This document shows positions 45,352 through 57,837 of a stretch of 64,000 nt of DNA, piece by piece. The DNA is from Anaerolineales bacterium (lineage in GTDB: Bacteria > Chloroflexota > Anaerolineae > Anaerolineales > UBA11858). Both the position numbers and the translations under genes were made by a program. The DNA lies in NCBI GenBank assembly GCA_016785015.1, contig JADHTJ010000002.1, positions 36,913-100,912 on the forward strand. Reading direction: 5' to 3'. The notes below the pieces were generated by a model. It saw nothing but the letters and a program-made list of their open reading frames with translations. It did no database searches and had not been told where the DNA came from. Each line of letters starts with the position of its first letter. The stretch's first letter is position 1.

Positions 45352-45563
45352 CTTGGTAGTATTGAATTTTCAGGATTTTATAGGCGTATCAATCAGGAGT
45401 GGTGATTTGCGTGGTATTCAAAACATCACCTTGGGTAAGACGGGCTTCACTTCGATGAACTCAGTGCAGGCGAGAGCCTCAGCCCTCTATGACCACCGCT
45501 GTCTGAGGCTCTCGATGACAGCGCCTTTGCAAGGTAGAAATTCCCAATTGTCAATACGGCCTA
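45352..45563. mobile_element. About 210-bp degenerate MITE of the TAGGTAGTGTTGACA family
   Basis: Left TTGGTAGTATTGAATTTT; right end reverse complement TAGGCCGTATTGACAATT. Confidence 0.55.
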
Positions 45564-47195
45564 GTAGAAATCTGGCTTGTGATCTGCGCTGCGGCCTCCA
45601 TCAACTTGTTCGTGATAAATTTTCAGCCATTCCACCATGCGATCACGTTCTCTACTGGCTTCTACGGATTCGATCTGCTGTTTTCGGGTGTAATAGCGGT
45701 GGAAGATTTCCTGCTGCACCATGGATGGATTGACAACATCATCGAAAGTGAATTTTGCCTCGCCGACGTTGATGATCACCGTGCCATAATTGAAAATCCG
45801 CTGCCAGAAGCTTTGGGCAACCTGGGTATTGAGTATCCTTTCCAAGGGGGCTGATTTTCTGAGATCCTGCCCAAAAGGTTTGCGGTCGATATCGAAGATA
45901 TTCCGGTCAGTTAATTGGAAGATGTCGTTTCCCCAGTCAATAAAGCGGTAAATAAATATTACTGTGGCAATAATGTTTGCCCCGACTATGATTTTACTAA
46001 ATATATCCCCAAAAGGAAATTTGAAAACAAGCAGTGCAATCAAGAAAACAGTTGTGATGCCGAGAAATAAAACAGCTTTCCAACTATCCATGACCAGGAT
46101 GAATTTATGTTTGCGGTAAGTGATTGTGCCTTGTTCTTCGTAGCGCGCTTTGAAGAAATTTGCTATTTGTCTTAGAAGTCCGGGTTGCTGGATTGGCCGA
46201 GCGGGAGGCCGATCGCTGGAACCATCATCTCTTTCATCTAAACCAATGCTCTCTCGTACCATCCGTACGCGCATTTCGTGTTCTTCTTCCGTATAGCGCT
46301 GTTTGGCACGTTGCCAGTATTCCTGGATTACCCCTTCAAGTTGTTTAGGCTTGTTCACATTCTCCATGACAATTCGGCCAGTATAGGTATTGACGATTAC
46401 ATCGCCAGACCTCCAGAGTCGTTGGATGTAGTCCGAATTCATGTGTACGGAAATCACCGCATCCAACGGAGCCTCGTGACGGCTTTCATAAACAAGTACT
46501 ATTTTTTCGAGCCAGACGACGCGTTTATTGGTGACGATATAGTAATCATTTCTCCAGTCAATCAAAGCCCAAAACGCCCACAAAACTACTAAGCTGCTAA
46601 GAAGACCCCCAACTATAGAATAATATTTTGCATCCCCGCCAAGCACGCCAGCGAGCATCATAACTGCGCCGATGATGCCAAGGATCACTATGGGGACGAA
46701 AGATTTCAACATAACAAAGAAATGTTTCTGGGCGATCAAATGAATAATTTCATCATCGCCCAGCCATTCGAATTGTCGGGTTTGTCCTAATGAATAGCTT
46801 CGAGCCAGGAGTTTAAGCTCTTCCTTGATTTCTGGGTACGCTTTCAGCAACTCGCCAAACTGCTCTCTTTTCAACACTAGCAGTTTGGTGTTGAGTACTG
46901 CAGTTGCTGTAGCGGTATGGCCTTTGTTCTCGAGGTACGATTGCTCGCCAAAAAATTCCCCAGACCTTAGATCACCTATTTCATACCTGTTGTCACCTTC
47001 TCCACGTGCTAGATGGATTTTTCCGGATGTGATAATATAGAAGTCCCCCCCCGGACTACCTTCATGAAAGAGTTCATCCCCTTCATTAAATGTAATTTCG
47101 TCCAAGCGTTGCGAGAGTGATTCGCGCTCCATCTCATCCAGTTTTCTGAAGATACGAATTGTCGCGAGAAATTCGGCAATTTCGTTGGGGTTCAT
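45561..47195 (-). CDS. Cyclic-nucleotide-binding domain fused to duplicated TM + bacterial PH domains
   Basis: FHEGSPGGDFYIITSGKIHLARG...FGEQSYL (cNMP); two TM pairs each followed by DWxNDxxxxTxxxxxxxxK PH-like segments. Confidence 0.85.
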   Translation of the reverse strand: MNPNEIAEFLATIRIFRKLDEMERESLSQRLDEITFNEGDELFHEGSPGGDFYIITSGKIHLARGEGDNRYEIGDLRSGEFFGEQSYLENKGHTATATAVLNTKLLVLKREQFGELLKAYPEIKEELKLLARSYSLGQTRQFEWLGDDEIIHLIAQKHFFVMLKSFVPIVILGIIGAVMMLAGVLGGDAKYYSIVGGLLSSLVVLWAFWALIDWRNDYYIVTNKRVVWLEKIVLVYESRHEAPLDAVISVHMNSDYIQRLWRSGDVIVNTYTGRIVMENVNKPKQLEGVIQEYWQRAKQRYTEEEHEMRVRMVRESIGLDERDDGSSDRPPARPIQQPGLLRQIANFFKARYEEQGTITYRKHKFILVMDSWKAVLFLGITTVFLIALLVFKFPFGDIFSKIIVGANIIATVIFIYRFIDWGNDIFQLTDRNIFDIDRKPFGQDLRKSAPLERILNTQVAQSFWQRIFNYGTVIINVGEAKFTFDDVVNPSMVQQEIFHRYYTRKQQIESVEASRERDRMVEWLKIYHEQVDGGRSADHKPDFY

Positions 47196-47273: not shown

Positions 47274-48734
47274 ATGCCCATTCACTTTGGAACCGACGGC
47301 TGGCGAGCTGTCATCTCTGATACCTTTACATTTCACAATCTCCGCTTAGTGACCCAGGCGATTGCCGACGCGATCAATTCGGGCGATTGGCAGATTGCCA
47401 CGAATTCTGGCCGCAGTGTTGACCCGCACAAGATGGTGGTTGGCTTCGATACGCGTTTCCTGTCTGATCGTTACGCCGCCGATGTGGCGCGAGTTCTGGC
47501 TGCTAATGGCTATACCGTCTTCTTGGCGCAAGCCGATGCGCCTACACCGGCGATCTCTTATGCTGTACATCATTTGGGCGCTATTGCTGGGGCAGTGATC
47601 ACGGCCTCGCACAACGCGCCGCGTTACAACGGCATCAAACTCAAAGCTGCCTATGGAGGCGCGGCTCTGCCTGAGCAATCCCATCGGGTGGAAGTATATC
47701 TGAATGACAATGAAGAACGCGGTCGCGGACCCAATATGATGGACTGGGATCAGGCGCGTAAGTTGGGGTTGATCGAGCGCTTCAACCCAATTCCTGCATA
47801 TTATGATCATCTACGTACTTTGATCAACTTCGATATCATTGCCGAGCGACCTCCGCGTGTGGTGGTCGATTCGATGCACGGTTCTGGTCGAGAAGTGATC
47901 AAGGGAATCTTGAAAGGAACCGGATGTGAGGTGCATGAAATTCGGGGTGAGATGAACCCTGGTTTTGGTGGCACGCATCCCGAGCCGATTGCCCGCAACT
48001 TGGGCGCCCTGGCGACGGCTATTGGGACAGGATTTGGTGATTTGGGTCTGGCAACCGATGGCGACGCGGATCGCATCGGCGCCATGGATGGCCATGGACG
48101 CTTTGTCGATCCGCACAAAATTATGGCCTTGGCACTGCGTTATCTGGTCGAAAAACGCGAGTGGCGCGGCCCCGTGGTGCGCACGGTTTCCACCACGCGC
48201 ATGATCGACCGTTTAGCCAAGAAATATGATTTGCCCATTTATGAGACTCCCGTAGGCTTCAACCATATTGCCGATTATATGCTCAAAGAAGATGTCCTGA
48301 TCGGTGGCGAAGAGTCAGGCGGCATCTCTTTCAGGGGCAATATCCCTGAGGGCGATGGCATTCTGATGGGGTTGCTGTTAGTGGAAATGGTTGCTGCCCA
48401 AAGGGCACCGCTACATGAATTGGTCGATGATTTACTGGAAGATGTTGGCCCCGCATTCTATGAACGTAAGGATCAGCGACTTAGCCATCCGGTTGTCAAA
48501 GATAAGATGACTTTAAAGTTGTTGAATGAAGCCCCTGATAAGATCGGCGGCGAAGCCGTTCAGGATGTATTGACCATTGATGGCGTGAAGTACATTATGT
48601 CGGATGATTCCTGGCTCTTGATCCGCCCTTCAGGTACCGAACCAGTGTTGAGAGTGTATGCTGAAGGGCGTACCCCCGAAATGGTGCAGGCTTTGCTGCG
48701 CTTTGGCGAGGACGTGGCGACCAGTGTGACGTAA
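47274..48734 (+). CDS. Phosphoglucomutase/phosphomannomutase family protein
   Basis: FGTDGWRAV, ITASHNAPRYNGIK, ATDGDADRIG, GGEESGGISF, RPSGTEPVLRVYAE. Confidence 0.95.
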   Translation: MPIHFGTDGWRAVISDTFTFHNLRLVTQAIADAINSGDWQIATNSGRSVDPHKMVVGFDTRFLSDRYAADVARVLAANGYTVFLAQADAPTPAISYAVHHLGAIAGAVITASHNAPRYNGIKLKAAYGGAALPEQSHRVEVYLNDNEERGRGPNMMDWDQARKLGLIERFNPIPAYYDHLRTLINFDIIAERPPRVVVDSMHGSGREVIKGILKGTGCEVHEIRGEMNPGFGGTHPEPIARNLGALATAIGTGFGDLGLATDGDADRIGAMDGHGRFVDPHKIMALALRYLVEKREWRGPVVRTVSTTRMIDRLAKKYDLPIYETPVGFNHIADYMLKEDVLIGGEESGGISFRGNIPEGDGILMGLLLVEMVAAQRAPLHELVDDLLEDVGPAFYERKDQRLSHPVVKDKMTLKLLNEAPDKIGGEAVQDVLTIDGVKYIMSDDSWLLIRPSGTEPVLRVYAEGRTPEMVQALLRFGEDVATSVT

Positions 48735-48845: not shown

Positions 48846-49421
48846 TTATCCTGAAGTGCGCAAGCGCCTAGCCAGGAAAATCACCAGGATCATAGCCCCA
48901 GCAAGAGCTAATAATCCAGGCAGGCCCACATCATCTGCAAAGCCAGCCGACGGCAATTGAGTCGATATGGGAGTCACAGTTAACAAATTCGAAGCTTGCT
49001 GTGTGAACAAAGCTCCCATCGTTGCGGTTAGTTGTGAATCTCGATCACTATCTTGTGCCAGCCCAGCCGCGGGCGTGTCGGTAGGTGCGATCACCGGAGT
49101 CGGGCTGGATGTGGCTGTCATTGGAGGCTGGGTGCTGGTAGCCGTGGGTGTGGCAGTCCACGATTGGGCTTCTGCGGTAAGGCCGCTGGCCATGGCGACC
49201 TGCGTGTTTTGAGCGTTGATCTGAGCTACCTGAGTATTTTGAGCAGAGCGCCGGTTTGGCACAACCACCATAGCATAAACTGCCATGAGAATTAACGATA
49301 GGATCAGGATAGCGCCCAGGATTCCGGCTACCAACAAGAAGGTACGATTGCTGGCTTCCTCGGGAGGCGGGGAATCATCGAATTCATCGTCATCAAAAAA
49401 TTCAAAAGGTTCTTCAGTCAT
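48846..49421 (-). CDS. Membrane protein with Thr/Ser-rich ectodomain and LPSAG-TM-RR C-terminus
   Basis: N-terminal TM, ATPTATSTQPPMTATSS linker, LPSAGFADDVGLPGLLALAGAMILVIFLARRLRTSG. Confidence 0.7.
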   Translation of the reverse strand: MTEEPFEFFDDDEFDDSPPPEEASNRTFLLVAGILGAILILSLILMAVYAMVVVPNRRSAQNTQVAQINAQNTQVAMASGLTAEAQSWTATPTATSTQPPMTATSSPTPVIAPTDTPAAGLAQDSDRDSQLTATMGALFTQQASNLLTVTPISTQLPSAGFADDVGLPGLLALAGAMILVIFLARRLRTSG

Positions 49422-49447
49422 TGCGATCTCCTCAAATTAGAAGGGTG

Positions 49448-50560
49448 CTAGGCAATTTTTTCCAGGTTGACCAGTGGAATTGTTGTGCGTTCATTGTCCG
49501 AGAGAACGACTTCGGCGCCAAGAGCACGCACTCCACTGGGAAATTTTATGGGTTGGCTGTATATGGTTTCAATCTTGCCCGATTTCCCTTGATGGGGCGC
49601 CCTAACAATTCGTACACTTTGACCCTTAGCAAAATCTTCAATGGCCAGGGATGCATCTTCGGGCGCTTGAGACGCATCTAATGGGATCACAATTTCAGGG
49701 CGAGTGCCGTTGTAATGATCCCGAGCTTCCGCATTCAATGATACTTCACGACCGTTATTTGATGTAAGTAAATTATAGCCTATTGCGCTCAGTGGGTGGA
49801 ATCCAAATCCCTCCAAAATCAGAACAGGGATTTGAGCCTTTCTTGCAAGGCGGACAAGAGAAGAATCCATACTGGTGAAGATCAAACCTCGCAGGGGAAT
49901 GTCCGCCGCTTTTTGGAAAATTTGGGGATCAGCACAATAGCCACCCAATACGATGGCTCCACGTAGGCTCACATCGAGGTCATCAGCAGTGAGTTTGTCA
50001 TCAGGGGAATCTATGCGAACCTGCATCATACCAAATTCCGTTTGGTCATTTCCCCAAACACCCTGAATGAGTGCTCCCGTAGCTTCGATTACAGCACCTC
50101 GATCTGGAATTAGATCTGTAACTGTACCAGGCATACCCGCATGTACTTCGTAGGGAGTGCTGTTAACCTGTAATAACACCAACCCATCCCCAGCAACAAC
50201 GATCCTCCCAGAGCGAGGCGCGCGAACAACTCGCTGGGTGATCCCCACGGGCCCTGCAATTAGATCGTCCTTTTGGATCATCTCTCCAGCCGCATGTTGT
50301 ATGAGATCATCTGCTTTCTCTGTAGATACATACAAACTGCTGGCAATATCTAACATGAGATGCTCAGGGGCTAAGATTGTCTCTGCAACTGTATCCAGAG
50401 CCTCTACTTTTTGACTCTGGCGTACGAGCACTTTCCCGGGAACAGGCAGTTCGCGGTGGCGGCGTATCTTCGTAAGTGGAGAGATTTGTATAATAGGAGC
50501 TAACATAATTCCTAGATAAATTGATGCAAGTTCAATGCCAGTTAGTTGCCAAGGGTCCAA
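49448..50560 (-). CDS. Unknown operon protein with biotinyl/lipoyl-like and KOW-like segments
   Basis: GKVLVRQSQKVEALDTVAE; GQSVRIVRAPHQGKSGKIETI; overlaps upstream gene. Confidence 0.7.
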   Translation of the reverse strand: MDPWQLTGIELASIYLGIMLAPIIQISPLTKIRRHRELPVPGKVLVRQSQKVEALDTVAETILAPEHLMLDIASSLYVSTEKADDLIQHAAGEMIQKDDLIAGPVGITQRVVRAPRSGRIVVAGDGLVLLQVNSTPYEVHAGMPGTVTDLIPDRGAVIEATGALIQGVWGNDQTEFGMMQVRIDSPDDKLTADDLDVSLRGAIVLGGYCADPQIFQKAADIPLRGLIFTSMDSSLVRLARKAQIPVLILEGFGFHPLSAIGYNLLTSNNGREVSLNAEARDHYNGTRPEIVIPLDASQAPEDASLAIEDFAKGQSVRIVRAPHQGKSGKIETIYSQPIKFPSGVRALGAEVVLSDNERTTIPLVNLEKIA

Positions 50561-52296
50561 AGCCAGCGTTTGAGCTGTTCACGCCTAAGGTCATGATCAG
50601 ATGGCAGTTGAAGTGGGCGACCTCTGGCGTCGATGACGATTCCTAAACTTCCGCCAACCACACGCACTCGACCACCTTTCCCGGGTCCACCCATGCCTAC
50701 ATCGAAGCGATGCAGGGGGCGTAATTGGATTTGTGCAGATTGCCCAGTTGGTAAGGGGATTACCTCGATTGAGCCAAATTTTACTTCGAGTTGGCTCTCT
50801 GAAGTATCTTCGAGTGTAGTCCGAATTCTCAAGACAGGTGTTCCCTTGCGGGCTGATCCTACGGGGGCGATGATAGTGCCCAGGTTTTGGAAGGCATGCG
50901 ATTCGAGTACCTGAACCGCCATCAAAGGGTTGATTTCAGCTGCGGCCCCCAGAGAAGCCAGGAGTTTGTTCTTGTCGAGAACAATCGTTGTGATCCCTGT
51001 CGGTTGGAGGCCGTCCAATATCATCAGCATACTCTGACCAGGTGTTGGCGCGTTACTCAAAATGCTGCCTGAAGCCAAAATCGGCTCAACCCAAGGCAAT
51101 AGATCACCTTCGGGCCCGGAAAGTGTGAAAGGAAGCGAAGGGATCATTTGAGAAACTGCTGAGCGCATCATTTGGCGCCCTAATGCCTGTTCGATGGCCA
51201 TTTCTTCTACTGTTGCGGGTATACTGGCTGGATGAGCAGCTTTGTTGAACAGGTAATCTCTCACCGATGATTTAGGTATTTCTTCCGACAGCCAAAAGGT
51301 AATGTGATCGGTGGAAATATAGTGGGATAAATTTTCAAGGTTGCTGCCTAAACCCAGTTGAGGAAATACCCGTATGCCAAGTTTTCCTTTGAGGGCGGCT
51401 GCGATTGTCGTTGCAGATGCTCCAATATCCACACCCAAAACACCCTTATTCGGATCATAGATATGGCTCAAGAAGCGCACCACGCGCCCAAATGCTGTTG
51501 AGGTTGGCAACAGGCGACCATTGGCCCATTGATCTAAATCAGAAACACCGAAGATTTGCTGGGCGCGCACATTCTTGAAGATTTTCGACATGGAAATTTG
51601 TGCGGGGGCCAACTGTTCTGAATGGATACCTGGGCGAATGTTGGGCGCCAGATGAAGATCTGTGAGCGGCGCAATAGTTTCTTTGATTTCTTCATGAATG
51701 TTGTTGTTGCCTGCAAACAGCACTTGAGGGCGCTGGTCACGAGGTAACAGGAAACATGCCAGGCCAACTGCTTCGAGCAATTGGTTAACTGACCGGGTTG
51801 CACCCCCATCGATCCCACCCGCAACGATCACTAGATCGGGACGAGCGCGTAGAATGGCATCGATACGCTCATCTTGCTTGCGCCGATCATTCAAACTGAT
51901 GGTTTCCGAAACTTTGGCATATGTCGTAATTGCTAGATTGCGGGCACTCTCCATAGAGACATCTTCTAAAAGCCCCACGGCAACTACTTTTATTTCTGGT
52001 CCTGCTGAGAGTGTTGCTGTGACTGCATCGATCCCTGTTCCATCAGGGTGACTGGGGATAAGAATATTGCCATCTGAGCCGATAAGGAGACGGCCAGTGG
52101 TCTCTTGTAATAAATTGATGGCGCGTGAGATGCCTTCTCTGACATCGCTGAAAGGTGGAGCAATGGTTGTAGGCGCTGTGCCAGATGCAACAAAACGATA
52201 ACGCGACCCAACCACATCAAAAAGGGACGCGCGTGTGTTGATAGTGCCTACATCGATGGCGAGGATAGAGTCAGCGGATACAACAGATGAAGTCAT
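50542..52296 (-). CDS. MutL (glutamate mutase L)-family ASKHA protein
   Basis: SILAIDVGTINTRASLFDVV; VIVAGGIDGGATRSVNQLLEAVGLA; GVLGVDIGASATTIAAAL. Confidence 0.85.
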   Translation of the reverse strand: MTSSVVSADSILAIDVGTINTRASLFDVVGSRYRFVASGTAPTTIAPPFSDVREGISRAINLLQETTGRLLIGSDGNILIPSHPDGTGIDAVTATLSAGPEIKVVAVGLLEDVSMESARNLAITTYAKVSETISLNDRRKQDERIDAILRARPDLVIVAGGIDGGATRSVNQLLEAVGLACFLLPRDQRPQVLFAGNNNIHEEIKETIAPLTDLHLAPNIRPGIHSEQLAPAQISMSKIFKNVRAQQIFGVSDLDQWANGRLLPTSTAFGRVVRFLSHIYDPNKGVLGVDIGASATTIAAALKGKLGIRVFPQLGLGSNLENLSHYISTDHITFWLSEEIPKSSVRDYLFNKAAHPASIPATVEEMAIEQALGRQMMRSAVSQMIPSLPFTLSGPEGDLLPWVEPILASGSILSNAPTPGQSMLMILDGLQPTGITTIVLDKNKLLASLGAAAEINPLMAVQVLESHAFQNLGTIIAPVGSARKGTPVLRIRTTLEDTSESQLEVKFGSIEVIPLPTGQSAQIQLRPLHRFDVGMGGPGKGGRVRVVGGSLGIVIDARGRPLQLPSDHDLRREQLKRWLWTLGN

Positions 52297-52305
52297 AAGG
52301 CATGG

Positions 52306-52986
52306 TTACCCGAGAGCCGCGGGAAGCACAAGCTCTTTGATGAAGGTCCATAAAAACGAAAAACGTTCGATAAGCGCAGTCAGTGCTGCGACGTAAACAC
52401 CCGCAAATAGCGCTCCAAAAGTGATTGCGATGAAGGCCTTTCCAATCCATCTGATCAACTTGGTTGCCTGGACAATTGCTGGGCGTTGATTTTTACTCTG
52501 CTTGGAGTTGAATTGAAAGTACAACAGCGTCGTAAAGGTACCGATCAGCAATATGGCGCCTTCGAGGAAGTTGTTTGTTTCAAAAACATTGACAGCCGCG
52601 GATACCTGGGGAAAAATAGTTCCAAAGATTCCCCCACCAATGGCCACAGCAGCACCGATACCTACTAAAATTGCCATAGCAGGGTTGCCAATCTTGCTCA
52701 AGCGAGGCGATATTTTGGCCAGTAATAAGAGGCTGGGGATCAATAAGCTGATAGTTAAAATCATCTCGCCTTGTCCACCGTTCATAAGCGGAAAGATCAA
52801 TTGGGGCAAGATAACATTGTAAATGGTGACAACGCTTGCATATCCTGCTGCTGCCCCAATGAAAATATGCGTAGCAAAACGGAAGAGGAAATTATCTCCC
52901 AAAATGTAGCTGAGGATAAAGATCGTGAACGAAAACCCTATCAGCAATCCAATCAGGTCAGCCAGGTTCATGTTAGCAGCAGTCAT
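52306..52986 (-). CDS. Polytopic membrane protein of unknown function
   Basis: MTAANMNLADLIGLLIGFSFTIFILSYILG; ATGA overlap with upstream CDS; start refined from 53097. Confidence 0.75.
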   Translation of the reverse strand: MTAANMNLADLIGLLIGFSFTIFILSYILGDNFLFRFATHIFIGAAAGYASVVTIYNVILPQLIFPLMNGGQGEMILTISLLIPSLLLLAKISPRLSKIGNPAMAILVGIGAAVAIGGGIFGTIFPQVSAAVNVFETNNFLEGAILLIGTFTTLLYFQFNSKQSKNQRPAIVQATKLIRWIGKAFIAITFGALFAGVYVAALTALIERFSFLWTFIKELVLPAALG

Positions 52987-55415
52987 CAGGCCTCCCCTCG
53001 GTTTCTGCTTCGAAGCAAGATTGAAAAGACATTTACAATCCCACCAATCAATATCGCCGCGATGGCTGTCATCAGGCTGAAGTTTAAGGCATCCCAATAG
53101 GTGCGACCCAAGTTATCTTTGCCAGTGACTTGCTCGTATGCTGTGCCGCCGATCACACCAGACACCATCCCACGCACTTGAGCCCCTTCTCCGCCAACAA
53201 AAGGTCGCAAGATCGGTTCTACTTGTGCACTGACCACAGTGATCAAGGGTGTGTCTTGAATTCTGGGTTCAACTTGTTCGATCCATGACTGGGCAATATC
53301 GGGGTTATCGGTGATCACCAATACCATTTTGAAATCGGAAAGGGCGTAGATGCCATCGAGTGGTGCCGTAATCCAAGGATCAAAACCGTCAAAGGAGAGC
53401 GGTTTGATTCTTTGAGGCATCTGCACAAAACCCAAAAGCCCGGATGCGCCGCCAGGGATATATCCCAAATTTACATACTGACTACCACTGGTGTACTGAT
53501 GCTCTCTTTGCACTGTAGAAATGAAATACTCCGCTAGGGCAGGTCCTGTTGGGGACGTGGAAATAAGCGTTAGATAGGCACCCCTAATCATCAAGTGGTC
53601 GACTACGGCTGCAGCGGCAGCGTTCATTTCACCAGATGTGCCAGGTTCGAAATCGAAGGAAACCAATACTGGATCTTTAGGTGCCAGCGAATTGATCAGC
53701 GAGCTGGTGTTGAGAACTTCGACTGGCACTGATGCCTGTGGGGGAGCCGGTACAAATTGTGTTTCCCCAATGATAACCAGCCCAATGACAAAGATGAGGA
53801 AAAATGCGCTCAACCAACGCAGCAACCCTTGTGATGAAACCACAATTGGCTTTGCTTGTTTTTCGGCTTGCCCCTCTGTTTCTAGTAACTCTCTGAATAC
53901 CCTGACATGCTCTTGTTGCGTTTCAGAAACCTGTAATCTGGATGAGAGTTTGGGGGCTTGTTTCAGGCGAGCGATTTCCGGCTCTGCCATAAGCACGCCG
54001 CTCAAGCCAGCCAGGGGACCAGTTTGTTCTGTCTGGCCTTGTTCTGCAGTGCTGTCCCCATCAGCGGATGATTCAACTGGACGCATGGCTTCCAGCCAGC
54101 CAGGAAGTTCAGCTGGTGCTAAACCATCATCAATAGCTCCTTCAGGTTCCGGAATTTGCAGATCATCTTCGTCCCTTAGTAGCTCAGTCAACTGGTCGAT
54201 CTTGAATATATCTTCGCCAGTTGGGGAGAGATCATCGGATGCTAATTCGGGGATAGCATCATCGCCAATCTTTTCCAACCAATCAGGCGTTTCGGGGTCA
54301 GGTTCTGCGGGGATGGTGGAAACTTGTGGTTCAGCCTCTTCCCCAGACATCCAATCGGGGATTTCGCCTTCAGTGGATTCAGCCGCTGGTTGAGCGTCCA
54401 CATCCTCAGCTGACTCCAGCATCCAGGCTGGAAGTTCTATGTCTGGATCCGGGGTTGATTCTGGTATGCTCGTTGCTGGTTCTGCCTCCACACCTGAAGG
54501 TTCTGTCATCCAATCGGGCAGTTCGTCATCAGCAGGTTCACTTGATGGAGGTGAATCATCTGAGCTTTCCGCCTTGGTGCTGAACCAATCGGGGAGTTCA
54601 TCATCAGATGGCTCTGCTGAGGCAAGCTCTTCACTGGCTGGCGCAGCCGCTTCTTGCAAATCAGGAAACAAGATCGGTGTTTCTTCTGGGGTTGGTTCGG
54701 GTTCTGCTTGATCAGAGCCTGCTAACCACTCAGGTAATTCACTTTCATCGACCTCGACTTCTTTATCGAGTTCAGCGGCTTGTTCTTCAGATGCGGCCAG
54801 CCAATCGGGGATGCTAGCGCCCGGTTCTGGCGACGGGGCCTCATCTTGCGGAATGACTTCGTCAGTAGTAGGTTCTTCTTCTTTCTCGCTCATCCACGAA
54901 GGTAAAGCCCCATCGAATATCGATGAGTCTTCTTCGGCAGGACTCTCTTCAAGAGCAGGTTCCTCACCCCCCTCAGACATCCAGGAGGGCAGTGCGCCAT
55001 CAAAAAGCGATGATGAATCATCTTCTTCGGGAGGTTCTTCATCGGTATCACGCAATTCTTTGATGCGATCAAGCCAATCCCCCTCCTCGGAATCTTCGTA
55101 GACAGGCGATTCATCCAGGGCGGAGTTATCAATGGGTGCAGAATCACCCTCTTCGCGGAGTTTGTTCATCCAGTCATCGTCAGCGGGATCATCCTCAGGC
55201 GTGGATTCGGCCTCGGATTCGGCCTCGGACGGCGCTTCATCCTGCTGATCAGATCGCAACCAATCGGGCAGCCCGGCATCATTGTTATCAGGTTCCGCTG
55301 GCAAGCTCTCATCCGACGAGATGATCAACGGCTTCAATCTCGCCTGGCAATGCTGACAGGTTTCTAAATGATCGGGGTTGGGTTTGCCACACATGGGGCA
55401 GCGAATTTCTTCCAT
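52986..55415 (-). CDS. Zinc-ribbon protein with acidic [LI]PxW[LMF]-motif array and membrane-anchored C-terminal domain
   Basis: CPMCGKPNPDHLETCQHC; LPDWL, LPSWM, IPDWL, LPEWL, LPDWF etc.; two TM segments flanking C-terminal domain. Confidence 0.8.
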   Translation of the reverse strand: MEEIRCPMCGKPNPDHLETCQHCQARLKPLIISSDESLPAEPDNNDAGLPDWLRSDQQDEAPSEAESEAESTPEDDPADDDWMNKLREEGDSAPIDNSALDESPVYEDSEEGDWLDRIKELRDTDEEPPEEDDSSSLFDGALPSWMSEGGEEPALEESPAEEDSSIFDGALPSWMSEKEEEPTTDEVIPQDEAPSPEPGASIPDWLAASEEQAAELDKEVEVDESELPEWLAGSDQAEPEPTPEETPILFPDLQEAAAPASEELASAEPSDDELPDWFSTKAESSDDSPPSSEPADDELPDWMTEPSGVEAEPATSIPESTPDPDIELPAWMLESAEDVDAQPAAESTEGEIPDWMSGEEAEPQVSTIPAEPDPETPDWLEKIGDDAIPELASDDLSPTGEDIFKIDQLTELLRDEDDLQIPEPEGAIDDGLAPAELPGWLEAMRPVESSADGDSTAEQGQTEQTGPLAGLSGVLMAEPEIARLKQAPKLSSRLQVSETQQEHVRVFRELLETEGQAEKQAKPIVVSSQGLLRWLSAFFLIFVIGLVIIGETQFVPAPPQASVPVEVLNTSSLINSLAPKDPVLVSFDFEPGTSGEMNAAAAAVVDHLMIRGAYLTLISTSPTGPALAEYFISTVQREHQYTSGSQYVNLGYIPGGASGLLGFVQMPQRIKPLSFDGFDPWITAPLDGIYALSDFKMVLVITDNPDIAQSWIEQVEPRIQDTPLITVVSAQVEPILRPFVGGEGAQVRGMVSGVIGGTAYEQVTGKDNLGRTYWDALNFSLMTAIAAILIGGIVNVFSILLRSRNRGEA

Positions 55416-55418
55416 GAA

Positions 55419-56090
55419 TTAGCCCGTGTATGGTCGGTCGCTACCCGTGAGGATGCGAACCCCGGTTGCGATAGTGCCCAATGCGATACCTAATAAGATG
55501 CCGCGTGCGCCTGCTAAAGTAGGAACCCGCAGTATCCATTGACGAATTTCGGCCAAGATTGGCGCTTGCGCTGCGACTTGAGGCATAGCACCAATAAGCA
55601 GCATTAAAACAACTCCCACAAATACGACAGAGATCAAATTCAATCTGCGTGCTAGGAGGCGTGCCGCTGCATAAGTAAGGCTGATTGCTAAGACTGCCAT
55701 TAAGCTGGTTTCGATGGGGAGTTGAATGTAGTTGAAAATCCAGCTCGTGCGTTGAAAGTTTATTTCCTGCTGCGTAAATGTTTCCACGATATCGTATAGA
55801 CCGATACCTAATGTGATGATGAGTGTGATCAGCAGAATAAAACTGTATGATGCTTCTTCGTTGGCGCGAATCTTTGCCAGGTGAACAGAAGCCAGATTAA
55901 AAATACCCACCAGCATGGCTACGCCGGCCCAAACGATAGCGCCTTGCAACAAAAAGGCTCTCAGCAGCCCTAAGGTTGTGGCTTCACCGCTTGGGTCGTT
56001 GCCGAAAAAGTACCCCAAGAGCACCACGATTCCGACTCCGATTGCAAGCGCAGTAGAGACGGGTGATTTCAGTTTCAGGTTCAGGTTCAC
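55419..56090 (-). CDS. Polytopic membrane protein of unknown function (GTG start)
   Basis: Six-TM-like hydrophobic ORF, overlaps upstream gene. Confidence 0.75.
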   Translation of the reverse strand: MNLNLKLKSPVSTALAIGVGIVVLLGYFFGNDPSGEATTLGLLRAFLLQGAIVWAGVAMLVGIFNLASVHLAKIRANEEASYSFILLITLIITLGIGLYDIVETFTQQEINFQRTSWIFNYIQLPIETSLMAVLAISLTYAAARLLARRLNLISVVFVGVVLMLLIGAMPQVAAQAPILAEIRQWILRVPTLAGARGILLGIALGTIATGVRILTGSDRPYTG

Positions 56091-56869
56091 AATAATCCCC
56101 CAAAGATATCGGTAAATATCTGATCGATGCCTGCCAGTTTAAACAACACGCCAAGGATGATCACAACGATCAGCACCCAACGGAAAATATCTTGTGCTCT
56201 CAGGCTGGCAATATGCATCGGGCCGGCGTTCAGATAGGCTCCGCTAGCGTATACTTCTTCGCCGATGAGCGGTTCTTCGGATGTGGCATATAAGATGGCT
56301 TGCGCGGGAAGGTTGTCTGTTCCAGTAAGGGTCAGGTCACCATTGCGCTCACTCGCATCTGTGATTAAGGCGACTTCATTGCCGAAATGACCGATCAAAA
56401 TATGAGCAGTGGTTTTTTCGTCTTGAATGATGGGCAATGTTCCTGCAGCATACGAGAACGGGGTAAATCCTGCTAATTGACCTGTGGTGGGGTCATAGTG
56501 TTCGATATTGCCAATATCACGATAAGTGCTGCTGAGGGTGTCCCGGGTAAGGATTGCCAGGGAAGGGTCGCCAGCCGTGGCCACGGGTGGATTATCCCCC
56601 GTGGAAGCCGAACGGATCATGCCTTCCAGCGCGCTCAACCCGACGAAAGCTACTGCGCTTTCTGGCCCAGTCAGGTTGCCCCGTCCAATGCTGAGATGCA
56701 AACGAGAACCTGCTTCTACGGCTAATCCAATCGCCCGGCGAAGTCTGCTGAACGCGGGAATTTTCCGCAGACCAGATTCGGGCTGCTCGCGCTTTGCTGC
56801 CGTGAAGAGGATGATGAGCCCAGAGAAGGCTATAATGAAAGCCAGGCCAATGAGACCAGATATGGTCAC
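56087..56869 (-). CDS. DUF6754-like membrane protein (name from memory)
   Basis: Terminal TM helices flanking conserved soluble core IGRGNLTGPESAVAFVGLSALEGMIRSAS. Confidence 0.7.
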   Translation of the reverse strand: MTISGLIGLAFIIAFSGLIILFTAAKREQPESGLRKIPAFSRLRRAIGLAVEAGSRLHLSIGRGNLTGPESAVAFVGLSALEGMIRSASTGDNPPVATAGDPSLAILTRDTLSSTYRDIGNIEHYDPTTGQLAGFTPFSYAAGTLPIIQDEKTTAHILIGHFGNEVALITDASERNGDLTLTGTDNLPAQAILYATSEEPLIGEEVYASGAYLNAGPMHIASLRAQDIFRWVLIVVIILGVLFKLAGIDQIFTDIFGGLL

Positions 56870-56905
56870 GGCGAGCTACCTCCGTATTCCTTCGGTGTGG
56901 ATGGA

Positions 56906-57163
56906 TTAAATGCTCTGATCTGTCTGGCGCAAAAAGGTACTAAACGCCTTGGTTTGTGCGGGATTTTCCAGTACGTTTGCCAGAGCATCCCAATGGCCCT
57001 CCGGCAATACTTTTCCCAAGAAGGGCTGACTAAAATAAACAACCTGCGCACCCAGTAAGTTGAGTGGTCCTAGCGCATCGAGGATCAAAGCGGTGAGATC
57101 ATCTAGCCTCCATTGCTGGAGGGTTTCATGCCAAACTTGCCAGATTTGCTGGTCGTTATTCAC
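56906..57163 (-). CDS. Small unknown protein at head of operon (GTG start proposed)
   Basis: NNDQQIWQVWHETLQQWRLDDLTALILDALGPLNLLGAQ; ORF start 57280 runs into intergenic repeat. Confidence 0.55.
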   Translation of the reverse strand: MNNDQQIWQVWHETLQQWRLDDLTALILDALGPLNLLGAQVVYFSQPFLGKVLPEGHWDALANVLENPAQTKAFSTFLRQTDQSI

Positions 57164-57326: not shown

Positions 57327-57554
57327 TTATTTTTCAGCGAAGGGATCGTAGCTTGGATTGGTCCCGGCGTATATGCAGCTTGGGCGTCCGTCTAAGTTGC
57401 AGGATGTGCCCTCGGAACAGCGGTGTCCAACTACGCGCGGGGGTTGGTCGGGGAGCCATTCGGCGGGGTGTACAACTTGCGCCTCAAGGCTGACTTCTTT
57501 ACCAACATGATGGCAAAAACGCACTTTTTCAACTTCCCAAATTCTTTCAGTCAT
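57327..57554 (-). CDS. Small Cys-rich protein (putative metal-binding)
   Basis: MTERIWEVEKVRFCHHVGKEVSLEAQVVHPAEWLPDQPPRVVGHRCSEGTSCNLDGRPSCIYAGTNPSYDPFAEK; RBS GGAGGT. Confidence 0.65.
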   Translation of the reverse strand: MTERIWEVEKVRFCHHVGKEVSLEAQVVHPAEWLPDQPPRVVGHRCSEGTSCNLDGRPSCIYAGTNPSYDPFAEK

Positions 57555-57837
57555 CGCGATACCTCCAAAATGCATCCTCTAGCTTATGTAGAGTATATCT
57601 AAGTTGATGAAATATGCAACAGTGACAGGCATCGCAAATTAGTATGACAATATTCTGGGTAAGATTTATCCTAATATGATTCCCCCATTGTGAGTTTTCC
57701 AATTGGTCTGAACCCTGCAAGAGCGAAGCATGCCCTGAGCATGTCGAAGGGAATCTCTCCAAACAGTGATCCAGATCCTTCGCTCTGCTCAGGATGACAT
57801 AAATTAGGGAATTTTTTGCACATAGGGTTAATTATTG

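Follow-up and report, generated by a model that had tools for sequence, protein, structure and literature searches.

A conserved membrane protein cassette with a MutL-type partner in an Anaerolineales genome and in diverse bacteria and archaea

Proteins of the MutL family (Pfam PF13941; NCBIfam NF040745 and NF040744) are known as the accessories GlmL and Or-4 of glutamate mutase and ornithine aminomutase operons. They possess an ASKHA-type core with glycine/aspartate motifs, and are proposed to service the subunits of the B12 mutases that they accompany. A second family, DUF6754 (PF20539), spans bacteria and archaea, and Pfam assigns no function to it. We analysed a stretch of 64,000 nucleotides (henceforth the window) from an Anaerolineales bacterium of the Chloroflexota (contig JADHTJ010000002.1, positions 36,913 to 100,912), in which one operon encodes members of both families. 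The identities proposed in a first-pass annotation of the window were borne out by scores of 102 bits against PF20539 and 236 bits against PF13941 (cut-off 27 in each case). The MutL of this operon shares family and core with GlmL and Or-4, but it has no mutase neighbour, bears an additional C-terminal domain, falls on a separate branch of the family and lies below the equivalog cut-offs. The cluster represents one instance of an undescribed membrane system, which comprises a four-protein membrane unit (the cassette) and a dedicated pair containing a predicted ATPase. Comparison of sequences reveals a conserved set of seven co-occurring proteins, with predicted polytopic subunits and an ASKHA-type protein retaining its motifs, and with paralogous cassettes accompanied by few ATPase pairs.

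The eight minus-strand genes claimed for this operon are all present at the positions given for them. It begins with a GTG-initiated gene for a soluble protein of 85 residues, here termed 'first' (56906..57163). This is followed by the DUF6754 protein (56087..56869), in which a Rossmann-like cytoplasmic domain of about 200 residues lies between two transmembrane segments (TMs); TM2 (55419..56090), a polytopic membrane protein with 6 predicted TMs in the window; a zinc-ribbon/EXT fusion (ZnR-EXT; 52986..55415), in which an N-terminal zinc ribbon and a PxW[LM] array precede the EXT region; and TM4 (52306..52986), a polytopic protein of 226 residues with at least 5 predicted TMs. The system-type MutL (50542..52296) and KOWlip (49448..50506) come next, the latter combining a barrel-sandwich-hybrid region, a swivelling-type beta/beta/alpha domain and a C-terminal KOW domain. 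The window has DUF6754, TM2, EXT and TM4 in order on one strand, with KOWlip and the extended MutL adjacent, and so falls under our definition of the system, in which these four genes keep this order and the MutL-KOWlip pair is encoded in the genome. The final gene encodes the LPSAG protein (48846..49421), whose 2 predicted TMs, one at each terminus, flank a T/P-rich segment and an LPxTG-like motif and are followed by a basic tail. TM2, TM4, LPSAG and 'first' gave no family match above cut-off in Pfam or NCBIfam, the KOW match was marginally under the Pfam cut-off (21.8 versus 22.3 bits) and the zinc-ribbon matches were weak. The array of short linear motifs seen in the first pass is real: the pattern [LIVM]P[DEASG]W[LMFI] matches 10 times within residues 1-520, as against a mean of 0.02 and a maximum of 1 in shuffled sequences. 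The tight packing also reported there stands in part. The 4-bp overlap at 56087/56090 and the one-base overlap at 52986 (where the start ATG of TM4 meets the ZnR-EXT stop codon) are confirmed, the gap at 55415/55419 is 3 bp and not 4, and the overlap at 50542/50560 exists only with a TTG start of KOWlip, the longer form ending at 50560. Alignment of the family favours the ATG at 50506, which gives a protein of 352 residues and a gap of 35 bp to MutL.

We compared 301 Chloroflexota genomes and read 60 neighbourhoods. DUF6754 is found in 67 of these genomes and MutL in 179, and MutL is present in 66 of the 67 DUF6754-carrying ones (Fisher p=1e-16). At 29 Chloroflexota DUF6754 loci, the window included, the genes present follow the order first-DUF6754-TM2-EXT-TM4-MutL-KOWlip on one strand. 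Adjacent KOWlip is absent from 9 of the 29, namely those of Chloroflexales-type families and L074, where the contig ends; another of the nine, L082, was scored as deviating in order on account of a marginal match on the opposite strand. KOWlip is nonetheless present in 64 of the 67 DUF6754 genomes, being encoded elsewhere in the Chloroflexales-type ones. The operon is real, and its conserved order and strand, seen at the other Chloroflexota loci that we examined as well as in other phyla, go beyond chance; the neighbourhood comparison dismisses the possibility, raised with the initial annotation, of no conservation beyond this genome. Seven of its eight proposed members recur in this way. The eighth, LPSAG, is a lineage-specific extra outside the conserved unit, seen only in Chloroflexota in 12 aligned rows at the same operon position (window included), most of which carry the C-terminal LPxTG-like motif, TM and basic tail expected of a possible sortase substrate. 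Relatives of 'first' are marked by the motif K-P-L-[SN]-[FL]-x-[GA]-[SA]-Q, and its profile matches adjoin MutL in Planctomycetota and other phyla. In Chloroflexota and Bacillota they adjoin DUF6754. Many other Chloroflexota families retain only MutL-KOWlip, often preceded by a zinc-ribbon/PxW protein. ZnR-EXT thus joins such a protein to EXT, which stands alone in other phyla (about 270–300 residues).

The system extends far beyond Chloroflexota, and the Chloroflexota-centred scope of the first-pass annotation was too narrow. A DUF6754 scan of 84,980 species genomes, in which many of the matching genomes are metagenome-assembled genomes (MAGs), recovered the cassette from Bacillota, Planctomycetota, Elusimicrobia, WOR-3, Hydrothermota, Latescibacterota, Eisenbacteria and Armatimonadota, as well as from Bathyarchaeota, Culexarchaeia/Methanomethylicota, one Thermococci MAG, one deltaproteobacterial MAG and one oligoflexian MAG. 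Wherever a locus is long enough to show them, DUF6754 is nearly always followed by TM2, EXT and TM4, and compact Bacillota operons (L130 and L140) carry all seven genes from 'first' to KOWlip in the Chloroflexota order; the Planctomycetota gene contexts rest on match coordinates. DUF6754 occurs in 49 of 199 genomes from the phylum of the planctomycete G325, in 20 of 249 from that of the Bacillota genome G311 and in 4 of 200 from that of the culexarchaeon G309. Overall, between about one-fifth and one-quarter of the Chloroflexota and Planctomycetota genomes sampled possess the system, as do some Bacillota and several archaeal lineages.

KOWlip is the most widespread partner in the system, and it lacks a family name. 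Outside Chloroflexota it was detected in 28 of 30 DUF6754 genomes, and MutL in 30 of 32. In a second set it is present in 43 of 48 DUF6754 genomes versus 0 of 32 DUF6754-free genomes of the same phyla (p=2e-17), a count in which one marginal match was set aside and weak matches over short stretches in DUF6754-negative genomes (E 1e-3 to 1e-5) were scored as absent. Outside Chloroflexales it adjoins MutL wherever contigs allow. KOWlip was not detected in seven DUF6754 genomes (G306, G322, G784, G807, G820, G869 and G914), nor was MutL in the first two of these, which points either to incomplete assemblies or to real exceptions. The AlphaFold2 (AF2) model of KOWlip has a mean pLDDT (predicted local distance difference test score) of 86, and its PDB matches span single domains only (KOW, NusG-like regions and the swivelling domain), with low whole-chain TM-scores. 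Four Bacillota loci (L232, L234, L235 and L236) carry extra MutL-KOWlip pairs, some of them in tandem, with divergent or longer KOWlip proteins (385–470 residues).

The MutL of the system is clearly distinguishable from the mutase accessories. PF13941 covers the window protein at profile positions 1-448 of 450, and it falls far short of the NCBIfam equivalog cut-offs (106 versus 475 bits for GlmL, and 82 versus 600 bits for the other model). MutLs of 443–514 residues from the same phyla are largely found in mutase operons with GlmS/GlmE-like or OraS/OraE-like genes, whereas those of the system span 555–751 residues. In a tree of 56 rows, some of them long-branched, the 44 system rows are separated from the 12 classical ones by one branch with a support of 100/100. 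The additional length lies in a C-terminal extension of about 115 residues (about 468-584 in the window numbering) with a D-x-R-G-R-P motif, in which G508, D556 and R558 are identical in 44/44 system rows, and which is missing from the classical rows. The ASKHA phosphate-1 and phosphate-2 motifs are largely conserved in the system rows (D15 86%, G17 95%, G292 89% and T296 82% identical), and by these motifs the window MutL is a predicted ATPase. A sequence search of the PDB with MutL returned nothing useful. We also considered ATP-driven electron transfer of the 'archerase' kind, and rejected it because there is no cysteine among the conserved MutL positions.

Membership of PF13941 could also mean that this MutL serves a B12-dependent mutase from another locus in the ordinary way, its place in the operon being incidental. 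The window genome is 81% complete, and a mutase could be missing from it; glutamate mutase E (PF06368) has no match in that genome, and there is no GlmS or GlmE gene in the operon, in line with the earlier remark that no mutase subunit is visible here. However, glutamate mutase E exceeds its cut-off in only 4/301 Chloroflexota, as against the 179 with MutL, and a single genome (G176) carries both types, a 461-residue MutL between GlmS-like and GlmE genes (L328) and a system MutL with cassette and KOWlip (L089). This scarcity of mutases, the operon contexts, the tree split and the system-specific C-terminal domain lead us to reject the accessory role, which we consider extremely improbable. The earlier proposal that MutL was recruited to a membrane machine is well supported by context, tree, extension and co-occurrence as far as membership is concerned; its derivation from mutase service is not. 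As the tree is rooted arbitrarily and only for drawing, either the mutase or the membrane use could be ancestral.

The AF2 model of the DUF6754 protein (pLDDT 93) reproduces the arrangement of TM, Rossmann-like domain and TM. Foldseek comparison with the PDB gave weak Rossmann/SIS-type matches only, none with E<=0.001, and the sequence search against the PDB was equally unproductive. Basic residues average 4.6 per 15 residues after TM1 of this protein versus 0.7 before it, while the outer sides of the two TMs of EXT have 3.2 and 3.7 versus 1.2. By the positive-inside tendency, this charge pattern predicts a cytoplasmic DUF6754 domain and an extracytoplasmic EXT domain, EXT thus having the predicted topology of a TM, an alpha/beta domain and a second TM. 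The zinc-ribbon/PxW segment of the fusion (about residues 1-520) is predicted to be cytoplasmic. For EXT, the sole match among PDB sequences was weak and confined to a stretch of glutamate racemase (E 0.005).

Cassettes occur in multiple copies in some genomes. The Bacillota genomes G311 and G302 have 27 and 10 DUF6754 genes, respectively, and four Culexarchaea have 7, 7, 6 and 4, with one MutL and one KOWlip per genome. The copies that we read are mostly intact four-gene units at different genomic places. Those of Bacillota have as neighbours amidohydrolases, creatininase, M14, M19 and M20 peptidases, formiminotransferase and dihydrodipicolinate synthase (DHDPS). Amidohydrolases account for 7/46 of the immediate same-strand positions and for 8/242 of the others (p=0.004). 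One of the culexarchaeal cassettes sits immediately downstream of genes for a biotin carrier and an OadA/PYC-type carboxyltransferase, and an acyl-CoA dehydrogenase-like neighbour was recognised by eye.

Since transport would explain both this ratio of paralogues to ATPases and the catabolic neighbours, we tentatively favour a multi-paralogue complex resembling solute transporters and served by a shared ASKHA ATPase. The conservation of the unit, the joint occurrence of its parts even where they are unlinked, the predicted topology and the largely retained phosphate-motif residues of MutL speak for it too. TM2 and TM4 would form the membrane path, EXT, as a putative binding domain, would recognise a small molecule outside the cell, and DUF6754 would receive or couple it inside. 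MutL-KOWlip, as an ATPase common to the membrane complexes, would energise or reset them, and the zinc-ribbon/PxW array that Chloroflexota have fused to EXT would probably tether cytoplasmic partners to them. The cassette copies may then be paralogues for different substrates, used alongside amidohydrolases and peptidases as well as acyl or carboxylate enzymes. Several observations weigh against this picture. No part of the system has homology to any known transporter. The amidohydrolase enrichment comes from a post hoc test that covered four Bacillota genomes, and a plain Pfam tally gives a weaker signal (Amidohydro_3 in 7/47 co-directional neighbours versus 6/90 genes at least 3 away). The cassette is mostly single-copy in Chloroflexota and Planctomycetota, where a housekeeping role fits equally. 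Lastly, many Chloroflexota with MutL and KOWlip have no detected DUF6754, suggesting that the ATPase pair may have another job; pairs of this kind with no recognisable DUF6754 cassette nearby occur at L096, L105, L113 and many other Chloroflexota loci, and may have an additional role or a membrane partner of divergent sequence. The wider proposal of a bacterial-archaeal transport class, in which an ASKHA ATPase and not an ABC (ATP-binding cassette), P-type or ion-driven motor serves exchangeable four-subunit cassettes, we regard as doubtful.

The mutase relatives of MutL and the carrier-type barrel-sandwich and swivelling folds of KOWlip are explained nearly as well if the pair is an ATP-dependent chaperone for assembly or reactivation. 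The cassette would then be its client, an energy-converting complex or an enzyme of the membrane, perhaps decarboxylation-coupled, which has to be matured or repaired. A single ATPase pair per many cassettes fits such a role too, as does the culexarchaeal cassette behind the biotin carrier and carboxyltransferase. However, we recognised neither a catalytic motif nor a cofactor site in the cassette, only one of the paralogous cassettes of one archaeal lineage has the OadA context, and the neighbouring enzymes vary between copies; we consider this possibility a serious one, if on balance unlikely.

ASKHA proteins such as PilM and FtsA are located beneath membrane complexes, and MutL could likewise be an actin-like scaffold of a sensory or cell-envelope machine in which EXT senses or organises the surface. 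The predicted extracytoplasmic position of EXT and the putative surface protein with an LPxTG-like motif added in Chloroflexota are consistent with this, as is an N-terminal extension of fibronectin type III-like appearance, behind a signal-peptide-like start, noted by eye on the Elusimicrobia DUF6754 proteins (L196:5559-6836 and L196:9530-10786). Against it, as many as 27 cassettes in one genome, next to catabolic enzymes, would be unusual for an envelope machine, LPSAG is lineage-specific, and no pilus, division or signalling genes recur next to cassettes in the loci read. We think an envelope role improbable.

Some further genes surround the operon in the window. An open reading frame of 82 residues with several Cys and His lies directly upstream (57327-57575, minus strand) and has no NCBIfam match. 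Convergent with the operon end is a gene that by eye resembles phosphoglucomutase/phosphomannomutase (47274-48734, plus strand; 486 residues), and genes of about 486 residues occur in a similar position on the opposite strand in several relatives (e.g. L063, L064 and L068). Further on, a minus-strand gene (45561-47195) encodes a protein with a cyclic-nucleotide-binding domain at its N terminus and with two bacterial PH-type domains, and the 60 other loci read yielded no homologue of it.

What this analysis adds is the cassette, its ATPase partners and the copy-number pattern, the DUF6754 and MutL families themselves being already known. The first-pass annotation had allowed that homologues might already have an assigned function, and our searches of Pfam, NCBIfam, PDB and PMC turned up none. 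In the open-licence literature we found no paper mentioning DUF6754, though a description may exist outside it, and nothing on the system-type MutL subfamily. The family name 'glutamate mutase L' steers annotators of these MutLs toward the wrong function. With seven parts and their order, topology and co-occurrence in hand, scattered hypothetical genes become one testable object. Should an ASKHA ATPase turn out to service a transporter or an enzyme of the membrane here, this would be a new use of the superfamily.

No overall structural match to the system parts was found, and the likenesses to known systems are partial. RnfC/NqrA barrel-sandwich proteins, the KOW domains of Spt5/NusG/uL24 and the UPF0107 swivelling domain each resemble a separate part of KOWlip, but no known protein matches its full architecture. 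The PilM/GspL/FtsA platforms offer an analogy only, in that an ASKHA protein is associated with inner-membrane proteins; MutL has no significant match to them in Pfam, NCBIfam or PDB sequences, and its membrane partners have no Pfam PilN/O/P match. Energy-coupling factor (ECF) transporters, also by analogy only, have many paralogous membrane units, the S-components, per common ATPase module. Among the eight products Pfam recognises no ABC ATPase, EcfT or S-component, and the predicted ATPase here is of the ASKHA type; the two systems are alike in logic, not in parts.
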